Assembly (NCBI RefSeq): GCF_027924605.1
Contig: NZ_AP027042.1
Location: 4,937,524-5,001,523, forward strand
From: Dyella sp. GSA-30
Lineage (GTDB): Bacteria; Pseudomonadota; Gammaproteobacteria; Xanthomonadales; Rhodanobacteraceae
DNA length: 64,000 nucleotides
Direction of reading: 5' to 3'
This document shows, in pieces, positions 12,441 to 21,088 of this stretch. Positions within the stretch are counted from its first letter, which is position 1; every line of letters begins with the position of its first letter. The position numbers and the translations under genes were made by a program. The notes under the pieces are model-generated. The model did no database searches and was not told the origin of the DNA. It was given only the letters and a program-made list of their open reading frames with translations.

Positions 12441-14078
12441 CTACACCCAGGCTCTCGCGATCAACGCAGGCGCGTCGATACCTCGCGGCAGCGTACCGTA
12501 AACGCGGCCGCCCTCGCCGAGCCGGCTGGCGATAAATGCCTCGGCCACCAGCGTATTGCCCGACGCCAGCAACAGCCTGGCCTGCAGCGCCAGCGCCATG
12601 TCCTGTGCGATCTGGCGTGCGCGATAAGCTAGCGCGTCGTGATCGTCGAGGTTCCGCCTGAGTCGGTCGACCAATGCGGCAAGCCGCGTATCGCCATGGC
12701 CTCCATCGAGCTCGTCGAAGAATACCTCGATCACGCCGGGCTCCTTGGCCAGCGCGCGCAGGACATCCAGACATTGCACGTTGCCAGAGCCCTCCCAGAT
12801 CGAGTTGACCGGCGCTTCGCGATACAGGCGCGGCAGGATGGTGTCTTCGATATAGCCGGCGCCACCCATGCATTCGGCCGCTTCGTTGATCATCGCCGGC
12901 GCACGCTTGCAGATCCAATATTTGCCGACGGCCGTCACCAGTCGAGCGAACTTGTGCTCGTGCTCGTCGTGTGCGTGATCCAGCGCATGACCCATGCGCA
13001 ATGTCAAAGCCAGCGCGGCTTCACTTTCCAGGGCAAGGTCGGCCAACACGTTCTGCATCAACGGCTGGTCGCTAAGCAGCTGGCCGCCTACCTTGCGATA
13101 CGAGCAATGATGTACGGCCTGGGTGAGTGCCTGGCGCATCAGCGCACTGGAACCGAGCATGCAGTCAAAGCGCGTCATCGCGACCATCTCGATGATGGTT
13201 GGAACACCCCGTCCTTCCTCTCCGACCATCCACGCCAACGCACCGCGGAATTCAACTTCGCTGGACGCATTCGACCAGTTGCCCAGCTTGTTCTTGAGCC
13301 GCTGGATATAGAACTGGTTGCGTTCGCCATCGGGGCGATGACGCGGCAACAAAAAGCAGGTCAGGCCTTTGTCGGTCTGCGCGAGGGTCAGGAAGGCGTC
13401 GCACATCGGTGCGGAACAAAACCATTTGTGTCCGACCAGTTCATAAGCCTGACCGCGGCCGGGCGTACTCACCGGATAGGCACGGGTCGTGTTGGCGCGA
13501 ACATCGGTGCCGCCTTGCTTCTCGGTCATCGCCATACCGATGGTGACACCTGCCTTCTCGCTCATCGGCACATTGCGTGGATCGTATTGGCGGGAAAGTA
13601 TCTTCGGCTGCCAGAGACCGGCAAGCTCCGGTTGCAGGCGCAACGCAGGCACGCTGGCAAAGGTCATGGTGAGCGGACAGCCGCTGCCGATCTCAGCCTG
13701 TGCATGCAGATAGTAGAGGCCGGCGCGAGTTACATGACCTGACTCGCGCGAACTGTCCCAGGGCATAGCCACCAGACCATGCTCGATCGCTGTGCGCATG
13801 AGCTGGTGATAAGCGGGATGGAACTCGACCAGGTCGATACGATGGCCGTAGCGATCATGACTTTTGAAGACCGGCTTGTTTTCGTTGGCCAGGAACCCCG
13901 CACTCATCAACGGGCCACCAGCCAAGGTGCCATAGTGCTCCAGTTCCGTCTCGGCGTTGCTACCGTATCGCCGCAGCCACTCCTGCAATGACCGGTCCCG
14001 CAAATAGAGGTTGCTACCTTCCAGCGGCGGGACCTGGTTAGTTACTTCGTGCGTTTCGGCATATTGGCTAAAATTCAT
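12441..14078 (-). CDS. aidB: AidB-like acyl-CoA dehydrogenase family protein
   Basis: The 545-residue protein aligns with AidB along its length. Shared segments are the N-terminal PLEGSNLYLRD, LHAQAEIGSGCPLTMTFA, the FAD-region GMAMTEKQGGTDVRANTTRA, MTRFDCMLGSSALMRQA and the C-terminal AECMGGAGYIED and REAPVNSIWEGSGN, the last carrying the dehydrogenase active-site region. AidB is part of the adaptive response to alkylating agents in E. coli, binds DNA and has weak isovaleryl-CoA dehydrogenase activity. The start at 14078 matches the AidB N-terminus; longer reads upstream lack homology. No Ada operator could be identified. Confidence 0.88.
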   Translation of the reverse strand: MNFSQYAETHEVTNQVPPLEGSNLYLRDRSLQEWLRRYGSNAETELEHYGTLAGGPLMSAGFLANENKPVFKSHDRYGHRIDLVEFHPAYHQLMRTAIEHGLVAMPWDSSRESGHVTRAGLYYLHAQAEIGSGCPLTMTFASVPALRLQPELAGLWQPKILSRQYDPRNVPMSEKAGVTIGMAMTEKQGGTDVRANTTRAYPVSTPGRGQAYELVGHKWFCSAPMCDAFLTLAQTDKGLTCFLLPRHRPDGERNQFYIQRLKNKLGNWSNASSEVEFRGALAWMVGEEGRGVPTIIEMVAMTRFDCMLGSSALMRQALTQAVHHCSYRKVGGQLLSDQPLMQNVLADLALESEAALALTLRMGHALDHAHDEHEHKFARLVTAVGKYWICKRAPAMINEAAECMGGAGYIEDTILPRLYREAPVNSIWEGSGNVQCLDVLRALAKEPGVIEVFFDELDGGHGDTRLAALVDRLRRNLDDHDALAYRARQIAQDMALALQARLLLASGNTLVAEAFIASRLGEGGRVYGTLPRGIDAPALIARAWV

Positions 14079-14195
14079 TCCGGCATCTCGCGCAACGAAC
14101 GATCGAGGGCGAGTTTCCATGATTCGGCCAACATGGCAAGCGGGAATTTGCCTGGTTGTGCCCACCCGCCATGACAACGGGTGGGCACAGCAGAA

Positions 14196-15338
14196 CTACC
14201 GACCTTCGAAAGCTGCACGCACAGCCGCGCCTGCGTCCAGCAAACCAGCGCCGCAACCGCGCCTGCAGGGAGAGGCCATTGGCCGAGCGGAGGCCTTGAG
14301 ATATTCAGCAGCCTTATCCGGCGTCAATGTAGGCCGGACCGAATACATCATGGCAACTGTCCCGGCCACCTGCGCGGCAGCACCCTCGGTGCCGGCGAGG
14401 GATTGGTAGTTTCCTCGCACCGGCCCTCGCTGCCCCGAGTTATAGGTGACGAGCAGATAGTTGTCTAATTGCGTGGAGCCAGCCGTTCCTCCAGGAGCAC
14501 TCAGCGACACCTTATCCCCATAGCTGGAATATCGGGCAAGCCCGCCCTGACGATCGGCAGCAGCCACTACCACTACACCCGGACAATTGGCTGGATTGAT
14601 CAATGCAACATCATCGGCCTCGTTGTGTGCCGGCACTACAACTGTCGCGCCACGACTCCGTGCATCGACAATAGCCTCGCCAAGGTATTGCGGGCATGGA
14701 CCATGCGAGGCCGGTCCAACAATGATGGTCTTGGCCGGGTTGGCATTGGCAGGTACGCCGAAAACCCGGCCGCCCGAGGCCCAGATAATGGCGTCGGCAA
14801 TATCCACCTCCTTGCCACCGCATGCACCGACCGCACGCACAGGAACGATCTTCGCGCCAGGGGCTACCCCGGTAATGCCGACGCCATTGTTGGCCGCAGC
14901 AGCCGCTACTCCCGCGTATACCGTTCCAATCCATCGCGATACGGACGCCTGTTGCAAGCCGCACTCACCTGCGTCGCGCCAGTCTCCCGGATCGGAAGGA
15001 TCGTCATCCAGGCCATCGCCGTCGCGCGAGTCATCAGCATCGCTGTAGAAATCATAGCCGGGCAGAAGCTGTGATCGCAGGTCTTCATGATCGGTCACAC
15101 CGCTATCGATCACAGCAATAACCGAGCCCTCACCGTGCGTATACCGCCAGGCATCCTCCACTCGAATGCCAACCTTGGGATCATGCAAGTTCCACTGCCT
15201 GGCCCAGAAGGGGTCATCGGCCGCCGCAAACGCAGTCGCTTCGTGCTGCACCTTGCTTTCCCGCGCCATCGTCCCTGATGCGGCACCCATCCCCATGATG
15301 GCCGCAGTTATAGCTGCAAGCTGAATCTTCGTATTCAT
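14196..15338 (-). CDS. Exported subtilisin-fold (S8) pseudoprotease A
   Basis: The 380-residue protein has a signal peptide (about 1-25) and a full subtilase core of the Xanthomonas/Lysobacter type: DPFWARQWNL, SVIAVIDSGVTDHEDL, NNGVGITGVAPGAKIVPVRA, GVVVVAAADRQGGLARYSSYG, LSAPGG. Asp78 of the triad is kept. The His motif H-G-T-H-V-A-G reads I-G-T-V-Y-A-G (Ile137), and the Ser motif G-T-S-M-A-A-P-H reads G-T-E-G-A-A-A-Q (Glu318). Asn239 is at or near the oxyanion position. The reading frame is intact and surrounding fold residues are conserved, so this looks like a maintained non-catalytic protein. It is the downstream member of a tandem pair with pseudoprotease B, 93 bases away. Confidence 0.88.
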   Translation of the reverse strand: MNTKIQLAAITAAIMGMGAASGTMARESKVQHEATAFAAADDPFWARQWNLHDPKVGIRVEDAWRYTHGEGSVIAVIDSGVTDHEDLRSQLLPGYDFYSDADDSRDGDGLDDDPSDPGDWRDAGECGLQQASVSRWIGTVYAGVAAAAANNGVGITGVAPGAKIVPVRAVGACGGKEVDIADAIIWASGGRVFGVPANANPAKTIIVGPASHGPCPQYLGEAIVDARSRGATVVVPAHNEADDVALINPANCPGVVVVAAADRQGGLARYSSYGDKVSLSAPGGTAGSTQLDNYLLVTYNSGQRGPVRGNYQSLAGTEGAAAQVAGTVAMMYSVRPTLTPDKAAEYLKASARPMASPCRRGCGAGLLDAGAAVRAAFEGR

Positions 15339-15431
15339 CGATCTTCCTTAATCAACGGATGTCATGTGCCGGCTTAATGCCTGAGGTGAATACCTATGGG
15401 CCAACCCCCGGCGGGTCTGTCTGTATCCTGT

Positions 15432-16580
15432 TCAGCGGCTATCCCTGGCAGCCTCAACGGCACTCCCCGCGTCCAGCAAACCCGTGCCGCATCCGGTACA
15501 TGGCGCAGACATGGGGCGGGCTGTGTCCATGAGAATGTCGCGCACATCAAGCGGATCGAGCGAAGGATTGGCCGCACGCATCAGCGCGGCAACACCGGCG
15601 ACATGCGCTGCGGCCATGGCGGTACCGTGATGCGTGGTGTACAGAAAATTCGTCGACCCATCCCAACTGGGCTTGGTTGTCGACCAGATGTCGTCATCAA
15701 TGAAACGGCCATTGCCACCTGGCGCGCTCAAATGAATCAAACGCCCTGCATTGGAATACTGTGCGAGTGCTCCGCTGCGATCCGCTGCCGCTACCGCCAG
15801 GACGCCCGAGCAACTGGTCGGTGACCGCTCAGCTGGATCTTCGCCGTCATCGCCAGCACCTACAATGACCAGAGCGCCGAGGCTGCGCGCCAGTCGTATG
15901 GCGTCGGCGCTATAGCGATCGCATGGCCATGGCCCGGTGCTTTCGACAACGATGACACTGGCCGGATGAGGATTGTCCGGCACGCCATTGATTGTGCCGC
16001 CTGCAGCCCAGACGATGCCGTCACCCATATCGACCGCTGTACCGCCGCAGCGGCCTGCGACACGTACCGGCAGGATCTTCGCTTCCGGTGCGATTCCGGC
16101 GACACCCTCTCCATTATCGGCTCTCGCAGCAATGATGCCCGATAGATGCGTGCCGAAGTTCACACATGGCCCCGGCTCCCATTCACCGACTTCCGATGGA
16201 TCGTCGTCGCGCCCATCGCCATCTTCTGACAGTTGGATACTGGTCACGAAATCGAAGCCTGGAAGCACCTGTCCCTCCAGGTCGGGATGCCCGGATATGC
16301 CTGTCCCCACGACGGCGACAACACTCCCCGCCCCGCGACTAATGGGCCACGCGCCCTGCACGCCAATACCCCCAGCCAAATCATGCAAAGCCCACTGCAA
16401 GTGCCACAGCGGGTCGGCCGGAACCGCTTTTCCAGCGATATCCGGCGTTACGGCTATGGGTTCGGACTGTGTCCGATAGGCATCTGCATTTGGTATCGAT
16501 CGCCCCTGCGTTGCTGCCGCCATGACTGCGCATCCCATGGCAAGCGCGATGGCGCAGGTCTTCCTTTTATGTTCCATCAT
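15432..16580 (-). CDS. Exported subtilisin-fold (S8) pseudoprotease B, all catalytic residues replaced
   Basis: The 382-residue protein begins with a basic/hydrophobic signal segment (about 1-25) and has the S8 core: DPLWHLQWALHDLAGGIG, PGFDFVTS, NGEGVAGIAPEAKILPVRVAG, GVLAVAAADRSGALAQYSNAG, LSAPGGNG, AHVAGVAALMRAANPSL. Every active-site position differs from a protease: Asp is Gly92 (VVAVVGTGI), His is Phe142 (NFGTHLSG), oxyanion Asn is Asp244 (GAGDDGED) and Ser is Ala321 (HHGTAMAAAHVAG). The frame is open. The start at 16580 or 16577 follows GGGAG and AAAGGAG. It shares domain order and C-terminal cysteine motif (SAPCTGCGTGLLDAGSAV) with neighbour A, so the two are paralogues. The function must be binding or structural. 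Confidence 0.88.
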   Translation of the reverse strand: MMEHKRKTCAIALAMGCAVMAAATQGRSIPNADAYRTQSEPIAVTPDIAGKAVPADPLWHLQWALHDLAGGIGVQGAWPISRGAGSVVAVVGTGISGHPDLEGQVLPGFDFVTSIQLSEDGDGRDDDPSEVGEWEPGPCVNFGTHLSGIIAARADNGEGVAGIAPEAKILPVRVAGRCGGTAVDMGDGIVWAAGGTINGVPDNPHPASVIVVESTGPWPCDRYSADAIRLARSLGALVIVGAGDDGEDPAERSPTSCSGVLAVAAADRSGALAQYSNAGRLIHLSAPGGNGRFIDDDIWSTTKPSWDGSTNFLYTTHHGTAMAAAHVAGVAALMRAANPSLDPLDVRDILMDTARPMSAPCTGCGTGLLDAGSAVEAARDSR

Positions 16581-16945
16581 ATGCTCCCGTTCTCCTTTGA
16601 CTGGCACATCGAAATGTGCAACTAAAGGCTAATCTCCTGTTTAATCGGCTGGTATCGGCGCGTACTGCAAACGCCCCACACCTCGCGGGGAAAGAGAACT
16701 TAGGCCATCGCCAGGAGCCGATCAGATACGACGTACGGGGTGGCAGTGACATCGGACAGGTCATGACATGACGTCGCAACGAGCCACACAAAAATGCCAA
16801 ATGGCGGGGAATGCGATTCTGGCGCCGTCATGTATCGCCTCTACCTCGCCTATAACTTCCGCGCCATCCGAGCAAGGCCAAGGTCAGCTGGAACACTCGA
16901 CGCCACGGGGCTAAACTGCCGCAACCCCGGACCTGGCCTTTCTTC
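16581..16945. other. Intergenic region, no gene seen
   Basis: This stretch separates pseudoprotease B from the plus-strand asparaginase-like gene. It must hold both promoters. I see no convincing coding frame, tRNA or long palindrome; short frames here lack ribosome sites and typical codon use. Confidence 0.6.
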
Positions 16946-17431
16946 ATGCAGCATCTGACTATCGTCACCACTGGCGGCACCATCGACAAGATCTATTTCG
17001 ACGACAAGTCGGACTACAAGATTGGTGCGCCGCAGATCGGCGAAATCCTCACCCAGTTGGGCGTTGCATTTCAGTTCGACGTCATTCCGATCCTGCGCAA
17101 GGACAGCCTGCACATGGCCGACGAAGATCGGTCCCTGGTTCGCTCCACCATCGAAGCACAGCCACATCGCCACGTGCTGGTGACCCATGGCACCGACACC
17201 ATGGTCGAGACCGCTCGCGAACTGGCGCAGGTCAAGGGCAAGGTCATTGTCCTGACCGGGGCACTCAACCCGGCCCGGTTTCAGGGCTCGGATGCCGTGT
17301 TCAATATCGGCTGTGCCGTCGCTGCCGTACAGACCCTGCCTGACGGCGTATATATCACGATGAACGGACGCGTTTGGGATCCGTTGAAAGTTCGCAAGAA
17401 TCGCGACGCGAACCGGTTCGAGGAAGCCTGA
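16946..17431 (+). CDS. Single-domain asparaginase-like protein
   Basis: The 161-residue protein matches only the N-terminal domain of type I/II asparaginases. It has the first threonine signature TTGGTIDK (about 8-15) and the second VTHGTDTMVETA (about 79-90), which hold the nucleophilic Thr and the Thr-Asp pair. Full enzymes are about 330 residues and complete their active site with the C-terminal domain of a partner subunit; that domain is absent and no second half follows. Proteins of this short form are widespread, so it is probably complete rather than broken, but activity on asparagine is uncertain. No signal peptide is seen. Confidence 0.8.
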   Translation: MQHLTIVTTGGTIDKIYFDDKSDYKIGAPQIGEILTQLGVAFQFDVIPILRKDSLHMADEDRSLVRSTIEAQPHRHVLVTHGTDTMVETARELAQVKGKVIVLTGALNPARFQGSDAVFNIGCAVAAVQTLPDGVYITMNGRVWDPLKVRKNRDANRFEEA

Positions 17432-17536: not shown

Positions 17537-19042
17537 TCAGCGCTTGCAGGAGACTCCGACTGCCAGGAAAGCGTCGAGTACAGCTGCCGGATTCAGACCA
17601 AGATCATTGGTGGCATGTTGGACACCACAGGCACCATCCTCAAAAGTTTCGTTCGCCCTCCAATACAGCATGTTGGCGCGAGCGAATGCCTTGAACGCCT
17701 TTTCCGGATCCCAGCCATCGCTCTCGGATAACAAGCAAAACGCCTTGTTGTAGATGCCGCTGGAAAAATGGACACCGATACCATCACGGTATTTACTCAG
17801 ATGGTCGATCGACGTTCCATCGCGTACAGGCTGACACATATATCGCAACGCCCTCCCGGAAGCCTTGAAGATACTGCCCCCTACTAGATAGTCAGTCTTG
17901 CCCTGATCGAACCACTTGGCAGCTTCACCAGCCATGTCCGAGAACGCCTCATTCATACCTCCGGACTCCCCGCGATATAGCAGGCCGGACTGTTGCTCGG
18001 TAAAGCCGTGACTCACCTCATGAGCCATCACATCCAGACTTACGAGAGGGTAGTACGTGCCATCTCCATCCCCAAACAGCGTCTCCTGCCCATTCCATGC
18101 AGCATTACCCTCGTTTCTGCCCACGTGCACTATCAATTTCAGTGCACTCTTTAATGGCCGAATACCCAGATAATCGCCATACATTCGAAATACCACGCCA
18201 CCGGCGTGGTGCGCGTCATTGATTGGACCATACGCGCCATTCACCGCATCACCCTCGCTATTGCCACAAGGAAAACGCCATTCCTGGGGCTTCGGCCGAA
18301 TGTTCCGGATGGTACTTCCCGTGTTGTGTGCATGATACGTGACGACATCGGGTGTGTTCGTCGTGCAATAACCGCCTTCCTGCTTGACCTGCAATGCAGG
18401 CCGGCCGACTCCGTAAAAGTATCGACCAACTTTTTCGTTCCCCCCGGGGCCAGAAGCTTCCGCCGTTGTCATGCCTTCCCAGCGTTGCAGTATTTCACCG
18501 GTATCCGCATCGATGATGGCTGTAGGACGACTACCGCCTGATACATGCGAAACAAGGTACGCAAGGCGCGCCTTGCCATCGTCTTCGGCATAGACGTAAA
18601 GGGCGATGTCTCGATCTTCCCAGTTCGTCGCCGTTGCGCCAGTTTCCTTGCGCCAAAGGGCTCGGGCGGCAGCTTCGCTCAAGCGTGGCTGCACCTTAGG
18701 AATATCGCCTGCCAAATCAACGAATACATCGCCACGCTTGGAAACGATCGTATCCCTTGTGGCTACTTCGACCGTAACATCCGCTCCCAGGACCGGTATC
18801 CCTTGCCATCGCTGTTGCAAGCGCAGCGTGCGCGTCCCATGCGCCGTCGGCGCGTCCCGCAAGGCAACCAGCTGGCTATCCGCCTCCAGGCCGAGGCCGC
18901 CCGCCAAGCTTTCAACGTGCATCGGCACTAGGGACGGGACCGCAATTTGCTCGACCTGCAACTTCGTCGCTGCCATTGCCGACGAACTACCGAGCAACAT
19001 CGCAGCAGCAAGAGACAGCCGCCTCTGCAAGCTTTCTTCCAT
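17537..19042 (-). CDS. Secreted M4 (thermolysin-like) metalloprotease A
   Basis: The 501-residue precursor has a signal peptide, an FTP-like pro-domain (LQQRWQGIPVLGADVTVEV), a PepSY-type stretch (KARLAYLVSHVSGGSRPTAI) and the M4 catalytic domain. Zinc ligands are in HEVSHGFTEQ (His341 and His345) with Glu342 as general base and the third ligand in GGMNEAFSDMAGE; the C-terminal domain holds GVHFSSGIYNKAF with the transition-state histidine. Four or more cysteines suggest disulfides. The mature enzyme should be an extracellular endopeptidase. The start at 19042 follows GGGAGAG with nine-base spacing. It is a tandem paralogue of metalloprotease B upstream. Confidence 0.92.
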   Translation of the reverse strand: MEESLQRRLSLAAAMLLGSSSAMAATKLQVEQIAVPSLVPMHVESLAGGLGLEADSQLVALRDAPTAHGTRTLRLQQRWQGIPVLGADVTVEVATRDTIVSKRGDVFVDLAGDIPKVQPRLSEAAARALWRKETGATATNWEDRDIALYVYAEDDGKARLAYLVSHVSGGSRPTAIIDADTGEILQRWEGMTTAEASGPGGNEKVGRYFYGVGRPALQVKQEGGYCTTNTPDVVTYHAHNTGSTIRNIRPKPQEWRFPCGNSEGDAVNGAYGPINDAHHAGGVVFRMYGDYLGIRPLKSALKLIVHVGRNEGNAAWNGQETLFGDGDGTYYPLVSLDVMAHEVSHGFTEQQSGLLYRGESGGMNEAFSDMAGEAAKWFDQGKTDYLVGGSIFKASGRALRYMCQPVRDGTSIDHLSKYRDGIGVHFSSGIYNKAFCLLSESDGWDPEKAFKAFARANMLYWRANETFEDGACGVQHATNDLGLNPAAVLDAFLAVGVSCKR

Positions 19043-19376
19043 GGTGGCACTCTCCCATTTCATCACTGACATCCTGCCAACCCCCAACGAGTCGGCCATC
19101 AGATGCCGAATCAGGCTAGTTGCCTGGCAGGCAGACAGCACTTCCCGCTCAACGCCTACTTATGTCAGGCAAGTAATGCTTCGTTAGTGCGAGTTTAGGC
19201 ATGACTTAAAGATGTGCTGGAGGATGCACCGGCGGGCCCACAGATTGCGCTGTTCGAAACGGATTGCGGACCGTTAGAACCCGTCCAACCATTGTCGGCT
19301 CAATAAGTCGGGCCGACCCAAAGGGCCGGCTCGACAATGAACGGCATAAACCTGTTCGCCGCTTACCGGGTACGAC
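19043..19376. other. Region between the two metalloprotease genes
   Basis: This 334-base gap holds the promoter and leader of metalloprotease A and, at its right end, the terminator hairpin of metalloprotease B. Base composition is less GC-rich than the genes around it. No coding frame is convincing. The separate terminator and long leader suggest the tandem genes are transcribed independently. Confidence 0.55.
19291..19338 (-). terminator. Hairpin after metalloprotease B gene
   Basis: Outer arms attgtcg (19291-19297) and cgacaat (19332-19338) enclose an inner stem gccgaccc/gggccggc (one mismatch) with loop aaa. It is about 40 bases beyond the stop of metalloprotease B on the minus strand. 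Confidence 0.6.
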
Positions 19377-20891
19377 TCAGCGCTTGCAAACCACACCGAC
19401 CGCTTTGAAAGCGTCGACAACATCCGACGATTTCAGCCCCAGATCAGTAGCTGCGCTGACTACCCCACAGGCACCGCCATCGAAGGTCTCGCTGGCCTTC
19501 CAATACAGCATATTGGCGCGGGCAAAAGCCTTGAAGGCTTTCTCGGGATTCCAGTCGTCGCTCTTGACCAGTTCGCAATATGCCTTGTTGTAGACACCGC
19601 TCGAATAGTGCACATCCAGGCCGTTGTAGTACTTGCTTGCATGGTCGATCGACCTACCGTCGCGCCTCGGCTCGCACATGTAACGCAGGGCGCTGTTTTT
19701 TGCCTTGACGATATCGGCACCCACCATCTGGTCGCTTTCTCCACGATCGAACCACTCGGCCGCATCGCCCGCCATGTCGGAGAACGCTTCGTTCATTCCG
19801 CCCGACTGCCGGGAGTAGACCAAGCCTGAGTTCTGCTCGGTGAAGCCGTGACTGACCTCATGTGCAATGACATCGAGGCCAACCAGCGGATAAAACGCCG
19901 ATTGCCCATCGCCGAAAGCCATTTGCCGGCCATTCCAGAACGCGTTCTCGTAGTTCCTTCCATAGTGCACCATCAAGGCCAGGCGCGCCTTGAGCGGCGA
20001 GGCATCCAGGTAGGAGCGGTACATGTCGAACACGACCTGGCCAAAATGATGCGCGTCGTTGATCGGGCCATAGCCGCCGTTGACAGCATCACCTTGGCTG
20101 GTCGGGCAAAGGAATTGCCAGATCGCGCCGCTGCCAAGATTGGTCGAGTTCTTTAAATGGTATGTGGCCACGTTCTCCGTTTCGGTGCTGCAGTACGCGC
20201 CGCTTTGTTTGACGTTCAAAGCGGCCAGACCGCTCTCTCCATAGATGTAACGCCCGGTTTTTTCGTTACCGCCTGGCCCATGTGCTTCGGCGTGCGTCAA
20301 ACCTTCCCACTGTTCAAGCACTTCACCGGTGTCGGCATCCATGATGGCAGTGGGCCGCGATGGATGTTCGCCGCCGACAAAATAGGACAAGTGATAAGCC
20401 AACCTTGCCTTGCCATTCTCTTGCGGGTAGATCATGAGCGTGGCATCACGAGGCTCGACCGTGGCATTGACCGCCGCGATCGATTGTTTGCGCAGTAGAT
20501 CCATGGCCTGCATCGAGCTGAGTTTTGGCTGCATGCGCGGCAGATCGGTAGCCAGACCGACGTAGACATCGCCTTGTTGCCGCGTCACCACGTCACCGTC
20601 GCCGGCTTCGACAGTCGCGGTGGCGCCGAAGATGGGGATCCCACGCCAGGTCTGTTGCATGCGCACGGTACGCGTGCCATGGACGGTCGGCGCCGAACGT
20701 GTCACCTCAAGGCGGCTGAAACTTTCCAGGCCCATATTGCCGGCAAGGTCCGCTACCGTTACCGGAGCTGCGGATTTGAACGACATCTTGCCTATTTCTT
20801 TTTTTTCCGCCGCCTGCGCGGACGAGGCCAACATGGCCAAAACGATAGCCAACCCCAGCTGGGAACGCGCCATCCTTAGTACGTTGCTCAT
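19377..20891 (-). CDS. Secreted M4 (thermolysin-like) metalloprotease B
   Basis: The 504-residue precursor repeats the plan of metalloprotease A: signal peptide ending SSAQA, FTP-like region (MQQTWRGIPIFGATATVEA), PepSY-like region, and M4 domain with HEVSHGFTEQ (His344, His348), GGMNEAFSDMAGD and VHYSSGVYNKAYC. All catalytic and zinc residues are present. The two proteins are close over the catalytic domain (both have NDAHH, YGRNYENAFWNG or its equivalent, and KAFARANMLYW), so they arose by tandem duplication. The start at 20891 is supported by AGGAAAGG just upstream. Confidence 0.92.
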   Translation of the reverse strand: MSNVLRMARSQLGLAIVLAMLASSAQAAEKKEIGKMSFKSAAPVTVADLAGNMGLESFSRLEVTRSAPTVHGTRTVRMQQTWRGIPIFGATATVEAGDGDVVTRQQGDVYVGLATDLPRMQPKLSSMQAMDLLRKQSIAAVNATVEPRDATLMIYPQENGKARLAYHLSYFVGGEHPSRPTAIMDADTGEVLEQWEGLTHAEAHGPGGNEKTGRYIYGESGLAALNVKQSGAYCSTETENVATYHLKNSTNLGSGAIWQFLCPTSQGDAVNGGYGPINDAHHFGQVVFDMYRSYLDASPLKARLALMVHYGRNYENAFWNGRQMAFGDGQSAFYPLVGLDVIAHEVSHGFTEQNSGLVYSRQSGGMNEAFSDMAGDAAEWFDRGESDQMVGADIVKAKNSALRYMCEPRRDGRSIDHASKYYNGLDVHYSSGVYNKAYCELVKSDDWNPEKAFKAFARANMLYWKASETFDGGACGVVSAATDLGLKSSDVVDAFKAVGVVCKR

Positions 20892-21088
20892 AGCCTTTCC
20901 TCTCGTTGATTCGCGATAAGTCGAGCTGTCGATGGACATCGACAAACCAGACGCAAACCAGACTAGAGCGAGCAGAACGGACGCCATATCCGCGCGGCGC
21001 CACTATCGTGGGTCAGGAAAAACCAATGACTATGCGCAATAAAACGTTGGTCGGCACAAACCTATTCCCCAGCCGTTCCAGAGAACCT

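Follow-up and report, generated by a model that had tools for sequence, protein, structure and literature searches.

A tandem pair of putative secreted subtilisin-fold pseudoproteases, probably kept for binding, in Dyella sp. GSA-30

Two adjacent genes in a 64,000 nt stretch of the Dyella sp. GSA-30 contig NZ_AP027042.1, referred to here as the window, encode proteins, P1 and P2, that are probably secreted subtilisin-fold pseudoproteases, devoid of a prodomain, kept for binding and likely to act together. Both are predicted to be non-catalytic, and retention for what would be a binding function is the most likely reason for their persistence. The pair and its surroundings are listed in Table 1.

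Table 1. Features of the pseudoprotease pair and neighbouring genes (window coordinates)
Feature	Position	Strand	Remarks
AidB-type acyl-CoA dehydrogenase	12441-14177	-	
Hairpin, 14 bp	14157..14189	-	just past P2 stop; -30.2 kcal/mol, z -3.7; no T run
P2, pseudoprotease (predicted)	14196..15338	-	380 aa; PF00082, signal-like N-terminus, no prodomain
AAGGA, Shine-Dalgarno-like	15345..15349	-	upstream of P2; read from sequence
P1, pseudoprotease (predicted)	15432..16580	-	382 aa; PF00082, signal-like N-terminus, no prodomain
AAAGGAG, Shine-Dalgarno-like	16592..16598	-	upstream of P1; read from sequence
Asparaginase-N-terminal-domain protein	16946-17431	+	161 aa
M4 metallopeptidase (thermolysin-type), tandem	17537-19141	-	HEVSH and NEAFSD intact
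M4 metallopeptidase (thermolysin-type), tandem	19377-20987	-	HEVSH and NEAFSD intact

Sequence and predicted structure of P1 and P2

The P1 frame is open on the minus strand from an ATG at 16580, rather than the GTG at 16607 given in a program-made list of open reading frames, to a stop codon ending at 15432. Its product matches Pfam PF00082 at 1e-43, covering positions 1-279 of the 288 in the profile. Relative to active homologues P1 carries D92G, H142F, N244D and S321A, at the catalytic Asp and His, the oxyanion Asn and the catalytic Ser respectively (hereafter D/H/N/S), in the contexts VAVV[G]TG, [F]GTHLSG, VGAG[D]DG and HHGT[A]MAAAH. Similarly, P2, the next gene downstream, is 44-46% identical to P1 and matches PF00082 at 4e-34 (Pfam). 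Its catalytic His and Ser are replaced by Ile137 and Glu318, with Asp78 and Asn239 retained, giving D/I/N/E at the four positions as against G/F/D/A in P1. The Ser motif of P2, GT[E]GAAAQ, like that of P1, contains no replacement nucleophile, and neither protein has the complete triad and oxyanion Asn of an active S8 peptidase. Where active relatives have INxSLGG as the S1 strand, P1 has IVVESTG and P2 has IIVGPAS, and acidic residues, Glu213 and Asp244, have entered the pocket of P1.

In the active relatives of genus g11, the mature domain follows a segment ending GGELFEV...LPGVxxVEED. P1 and P2 lack this segment, and have only a signal-like stretch, judged as such by eye, and a short linker, together 53 and 39 residues; the absence of a prodomain is thus an alignment result, since Pfam I9 fails to pick up this segment in active relatives as well. 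The S8 prodomain acts as both folding helper and inhibitor. The N-terminal prodomain of an active S8 peptidase therefore appears to be missing from both proteins.

AlphaFold2 models, built from 25 sequences, have a mean pLDDT of 84.9 for P1 and 90.3 for P2. The closest solved structure is 5yl7 (Z 54.9 for P1 and 58.5 for P2; VIA-align), with StmPr1 giving Z 53.5 and 56.6, and these matches extend over 328-341 residues of the models. As the model alignment includes active homologues it favours a subtilase fold, and the models show fold rather than function. Both proteins are accordingly predicted to combine an S8 fold with loss of the residues essential for catalysis, and the sequence and structure matches rule out P1 being a chance open reading frame or a misalignment.

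All four D/H/N/S residues are intact in 84 of 84 aligned homologues, of which 58 came from the genome search (including paralogues from the same genome) and 26 from a genome-contig collection; they are also intact in 56 of 56 further S8 domain sequences, partly the same genes as the 84. As all of these keep the four residues, their loss from P1 cannot be attributed to family noise or chance. The initial annotation had described an intact P1 frame with exactly these four replacements and had proposed alignment to the S8 family and superposition of a predicted structure on subtilisin. Its numbering is correct with the ATG start, and both the PF00082 match, with losses seen in none of the 84 homologues, and the confident subtilase model (Z 54.9 to 5yl7) bear it out. 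The case was nevertheless understated, leaving unmentioned the location on the minus strand, the second copy and the absent prodomain.

The searches spanned 233 genomes of the family and 398 of the order, the best-scoring S8 genes being those read. Among the 233 family genomes P2 was the only relative more than 48% identical to P1, and no dead orthologue of either protein was found. A scan of the genome-contig collection with P1 gave no confirmed relative, which argues against a close orthologue there; with P1 and P2 together as queries it returned active S8 genes only, and nothing matching was found in viral contigs. Several active S8 paralogues are present in the same genome as the pair. Two more distant, lipoprotein-like paralogues, L007 and L009 (contig C1, near 621015 and 4041676), excluded from the homologue counts, have lipobox-like N-termini and keep Asp, His and Ser; Pro or Glu stands at the expected oxyanion Asn (IAAMPPDGN, VSAVDENLA), where the alignment is uncertain. 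Short S8 genes resembling these two score weakly in many relatives. In f2, a neighbouring family, four loci carry two or three tandem S8 genes, the short members of which were considered as further dead copies and rejected, all those read keeping D/H/N/S.

The locus and the origin of the pair

The gene order in the window is PntB, SufT, M4, M4, asparaginase-like, P1, P2, AidB, thioesterase-like, flavodoxin-like and YihY. At four g11 loci it is PntB, SufT, M4, active S8, asparaginase-like, acyl-CoA dehydrogenase, flavodoxin-like and YihY, PntB falling outside two of the four stretches read. The S8 gene adjoins the asparaginase-like gene in 23 of 23 g11 genomes, in single copy and with D/H/N/S intact. 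Based on this shared gene order, P1 and P2 take the place of the active g11 protease, although on the opposite side of the asparaginase-like gene, which indicates that a local rearrangement has occurred. The asparaginase-like gene itself is a highly stable marker, present in 221 of 233 family genomes at up to 96% identity. The acyl-CoA dehydrogenase of related genera at the position of AidB is only about 33% identical to it, which suggests a replacement or an insertion at this point. The M4 gene is tandemly duplicated in the window; most related genera have one at the locus, and genus g12 has two.

P1 and P2 are co-oriented and separated by 93 nt, each with a Shine-Dalgarno-like sequence upstream. 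A hairpin between the pair and the AidB gene is a possible end of the transcript; no sigma-70-like promoter emerged from a consensus scan.

In trees (FastTree and a reduced IQ-TREE run) P1 groups with P2, next to the g11 clade, and support for this is weak (SH 0.39; UFBoot 53). The two share a Pro-to-Ala change at 325 and eight changed cleft positions (p = 0.007). Together with the common absence of a prodomain, these favour a single ancestor, in which the protease at this locus would have lost both catalysis and prodomain before being duplicated. The pair appears to be specific to this lineage. An enzyme locus would in this way have become a non-enzyme pair, with single active proteases across g11 and two dead, prodomain-less copies here.

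Altered cleft, conserved fold and possible functions

The distribution of changes was assessed over the 68 positions at which active homologues show 90% conservation or more, and of which P1 retains 57 and P2 53. Of these, 24 form a cleft class, drawn from the S1 strand, the oxyanion motif and all three PROSITE S8 motifs, and 44 make up the remainder. P1 is changed at 10 of 24 cleft positions and 1 of 44 others (Fisher p = 6e-5), and P2 at 11 of 24 and 4 of 44 (p = 9e-4), these and the following p values being descriptive, since the cleft class was set after the alignment was seen; in leave-one-out comparisons no active homologue has more than four cleft changes. The enrichment persists without D/H/N/S (p = 0.003 for P1 and 0.002 for P2) and when the cleft is reduced to PROSITE motif positions (p = 0.005 and 0.02), but is not significant for PROSITE motif positions minus the triad (p = 0.14 and 0.09). 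Outside the triad, then, a large share of the signal lies in the S1 strand and oxyanion motif. Elsewhere, both proteins retain six cysteines and an acidic DGDGxDDDP loop, which, judging from the family, would bind calcium, and on the opposite side of the cleft the RCGG strand reads RCGG in P1 and ACGG in P2. Divergence between the two genes is 0.37, 0.35 and 0.65 at first, second and third codon positions, part of which may predate the loss of catalysis, and 75 of 105 fourfold sites differ, which is near saturation.

The main rival explanation is that the genes are dying, being protease copies that have drifted since losing their function and have yet to acquire a first stop codon. The pair was found in only one of the genomes searched, with no orthologue, its GC3 (0.61 for P1, 0.60 for P2) is below that of most neighbouring genes, and P2 has four conserved changes outside the cleft. 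By contrast, the fold positions have not drifted: 43 of 44 are retained in P1 and 40 of 44 in P2, where about 45% and 54% would be expected without constraint (4e-14 and 2e-7), a rough bound derived from fitted branch lengths, as the branch includes any time spent as an active enzyme. Some 380 codons also remain open in each copy. The cleft may be read as an internal clock, constraint having been lifted for long enough to change over 40% of its conserved positions while the fold was held, such that retention becomes visible from a single genome. Given the retained cysteines, acidic loop and confidently predicted fold, simple decay appears unlikely, a judgement drawn from the contrast within one genome of the genus. 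The proposal of the initial annotation that P1 is dead yet retained holds up on the clustering of changes in the cleft, the conserved fold elements, the open frames and the confident models. It had named relatives with intact triads, coupled with neutral decay of this gene, as evidence to the contrary; syntenic relatives with intact triads do exist, but P1 bears no sign of such decay. Its interpretation is supported in part, since the binding roles it went on to suggest, as inhibitor, decoy or chaperone, are conjectural, and a link to the M4 enzymes is weakened by the related genera that have M4 but no S8 here.

Other roles for a conserved but inactive fold can be envisaged. P1 and P2 might be decoys, titrating away inhibitors or prodomains before these can block the active subtilases of the genome, of which there are several; the general shape of the subtilase surface is preserved, as is one cleft wall, the RCGG strand. 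However, canonical inhibitors and prodomain tails occupy the subtilase cleft in the manner of a substrate, and the rewriting of the S1 strand in both proteins should weaken such binding, making this a rather doubtful reading. It is harder still to envisage the pair as chaperones, inhibitors or partners of the adjacent M4 metallopeptidases. The genes are neighbouring and co-oriented, both M4 enzymes have intact motifs, and M4 and S8 genes alike are duplicated here, but each M4 protein bears its own FTP propeptide motif and a divergent gene separates them from P1. Furthermore, several related genera (eight loci) have M4 at the locus without an S8 gene, and M4 is on that account unlikely to be an obligatory client. 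That either protein remains catalytic through a different set of residues is very improbable: the pocket is altered within a conserved fold and contains acidic residues (Glu213 and Asp244 in P1, Glu318 in P2), but P1 has none of the D/H/N/S residues, P2 has neither the His nor the Ser, and nothing stands in for the nucleophilic Ser.

The preferred explanation is instead that the copies have been kept because they provide a rigid scaffold, held by disulfide bonds and probably stabilised by calcium, that would bind something outside the inner membrane. Binding would most likely be to a protein or peptide, using either the remodelled face of the cleft or the surface, with P1 and P2 probably acting together in a putative complex. 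The pair may regulate a secreted protein or keep it sequestered, for instance an active subtilase of the same genome. Should a partner be found, the pair would join the small number of S8 pseudoproteases whose roles are known, and would show that a subtilase fold can persist, and must then be able to form, in the absence of a prodomain.

Comparison with known systems

The nearest relatives, the ~450 aa S8 proteases of g11 (for example L046 in genome G157 and L045 in G158), resemble P1 and P2 in their neighbourhood, in lacking a C-terminal domain and in sequence, with 44-50% identity in the catalytic domain. They differ in being single, active-site-intact genes with the prodomain segment. Likewise, Pro21717 of Pseudoalteromonas arctica (5yl7), StmPr1 of Stenotrophomonas maltophilia (9g8v) and AprV2/BprV of Dichelobacter nodosus match over the whole domain (Z 50-58, 40-44% identity), but are active proteases, their catalytic residues intact in the alignment. 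The mature domain of 5yl7 begins at precursor residue 145, indicating a long N-terminal prosegment, unlike P1 and P2.

S8 pseudoproteases are already known in CspA and CspC of Clostridioides difficile (PMC6636752, PMC12880746) and PIMMS2 of Plasmodium (PMC5520436); a literature search, to which subscription papers were mostly out of reach, found no bacterial subtilase pseudoenzyme besides Csp. PIMMS2, a subtilase-like pseudoenzyme that is likewise secreted or at the surface, has degenerate motifs around His and Ser and is required for function though presumed inactive; by contrast with P1 and P2 it is eukaryotic and single copy, and has a transmembrane segment and a long C-terminal extension (PMC5520436). 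CspA and CspC are, like the pair, two different dead bacterial S8 copies encoded together, with relatives in other families that are active (PMC6636752), and CspC:CspA forms a stable heterodimer of two pseudoproteases (PMC12880746). Csp proteins nevertheless retain a prodomain and have a jelly-roll insertion of ~130 aa (PMC6636752), and they function in spore germination with the active CspB, whereas P1 and P2 have secretion-type N-termini. P1 and P2 are not themselves Csp proteins, as they have no prodomain and their alignments of 328-341 residues are to S8 enzymes that carry no jelly-roll insertion. It is by analogy with CspC:CspA that a regulatory or sequestering role, and a possible P1-P2 complex, are favoured here. 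A bolder extension of the analogy, for now an improbable one, is that the pair represents an independently evolved Gram-negative regulator or receptor made of two pseudoproteases, a prodomain-less counterpart of CspC:CspA that would assemble into a hetero-oligomer, bind some ligand beyond the inner membrane and control secreted proteolysis.
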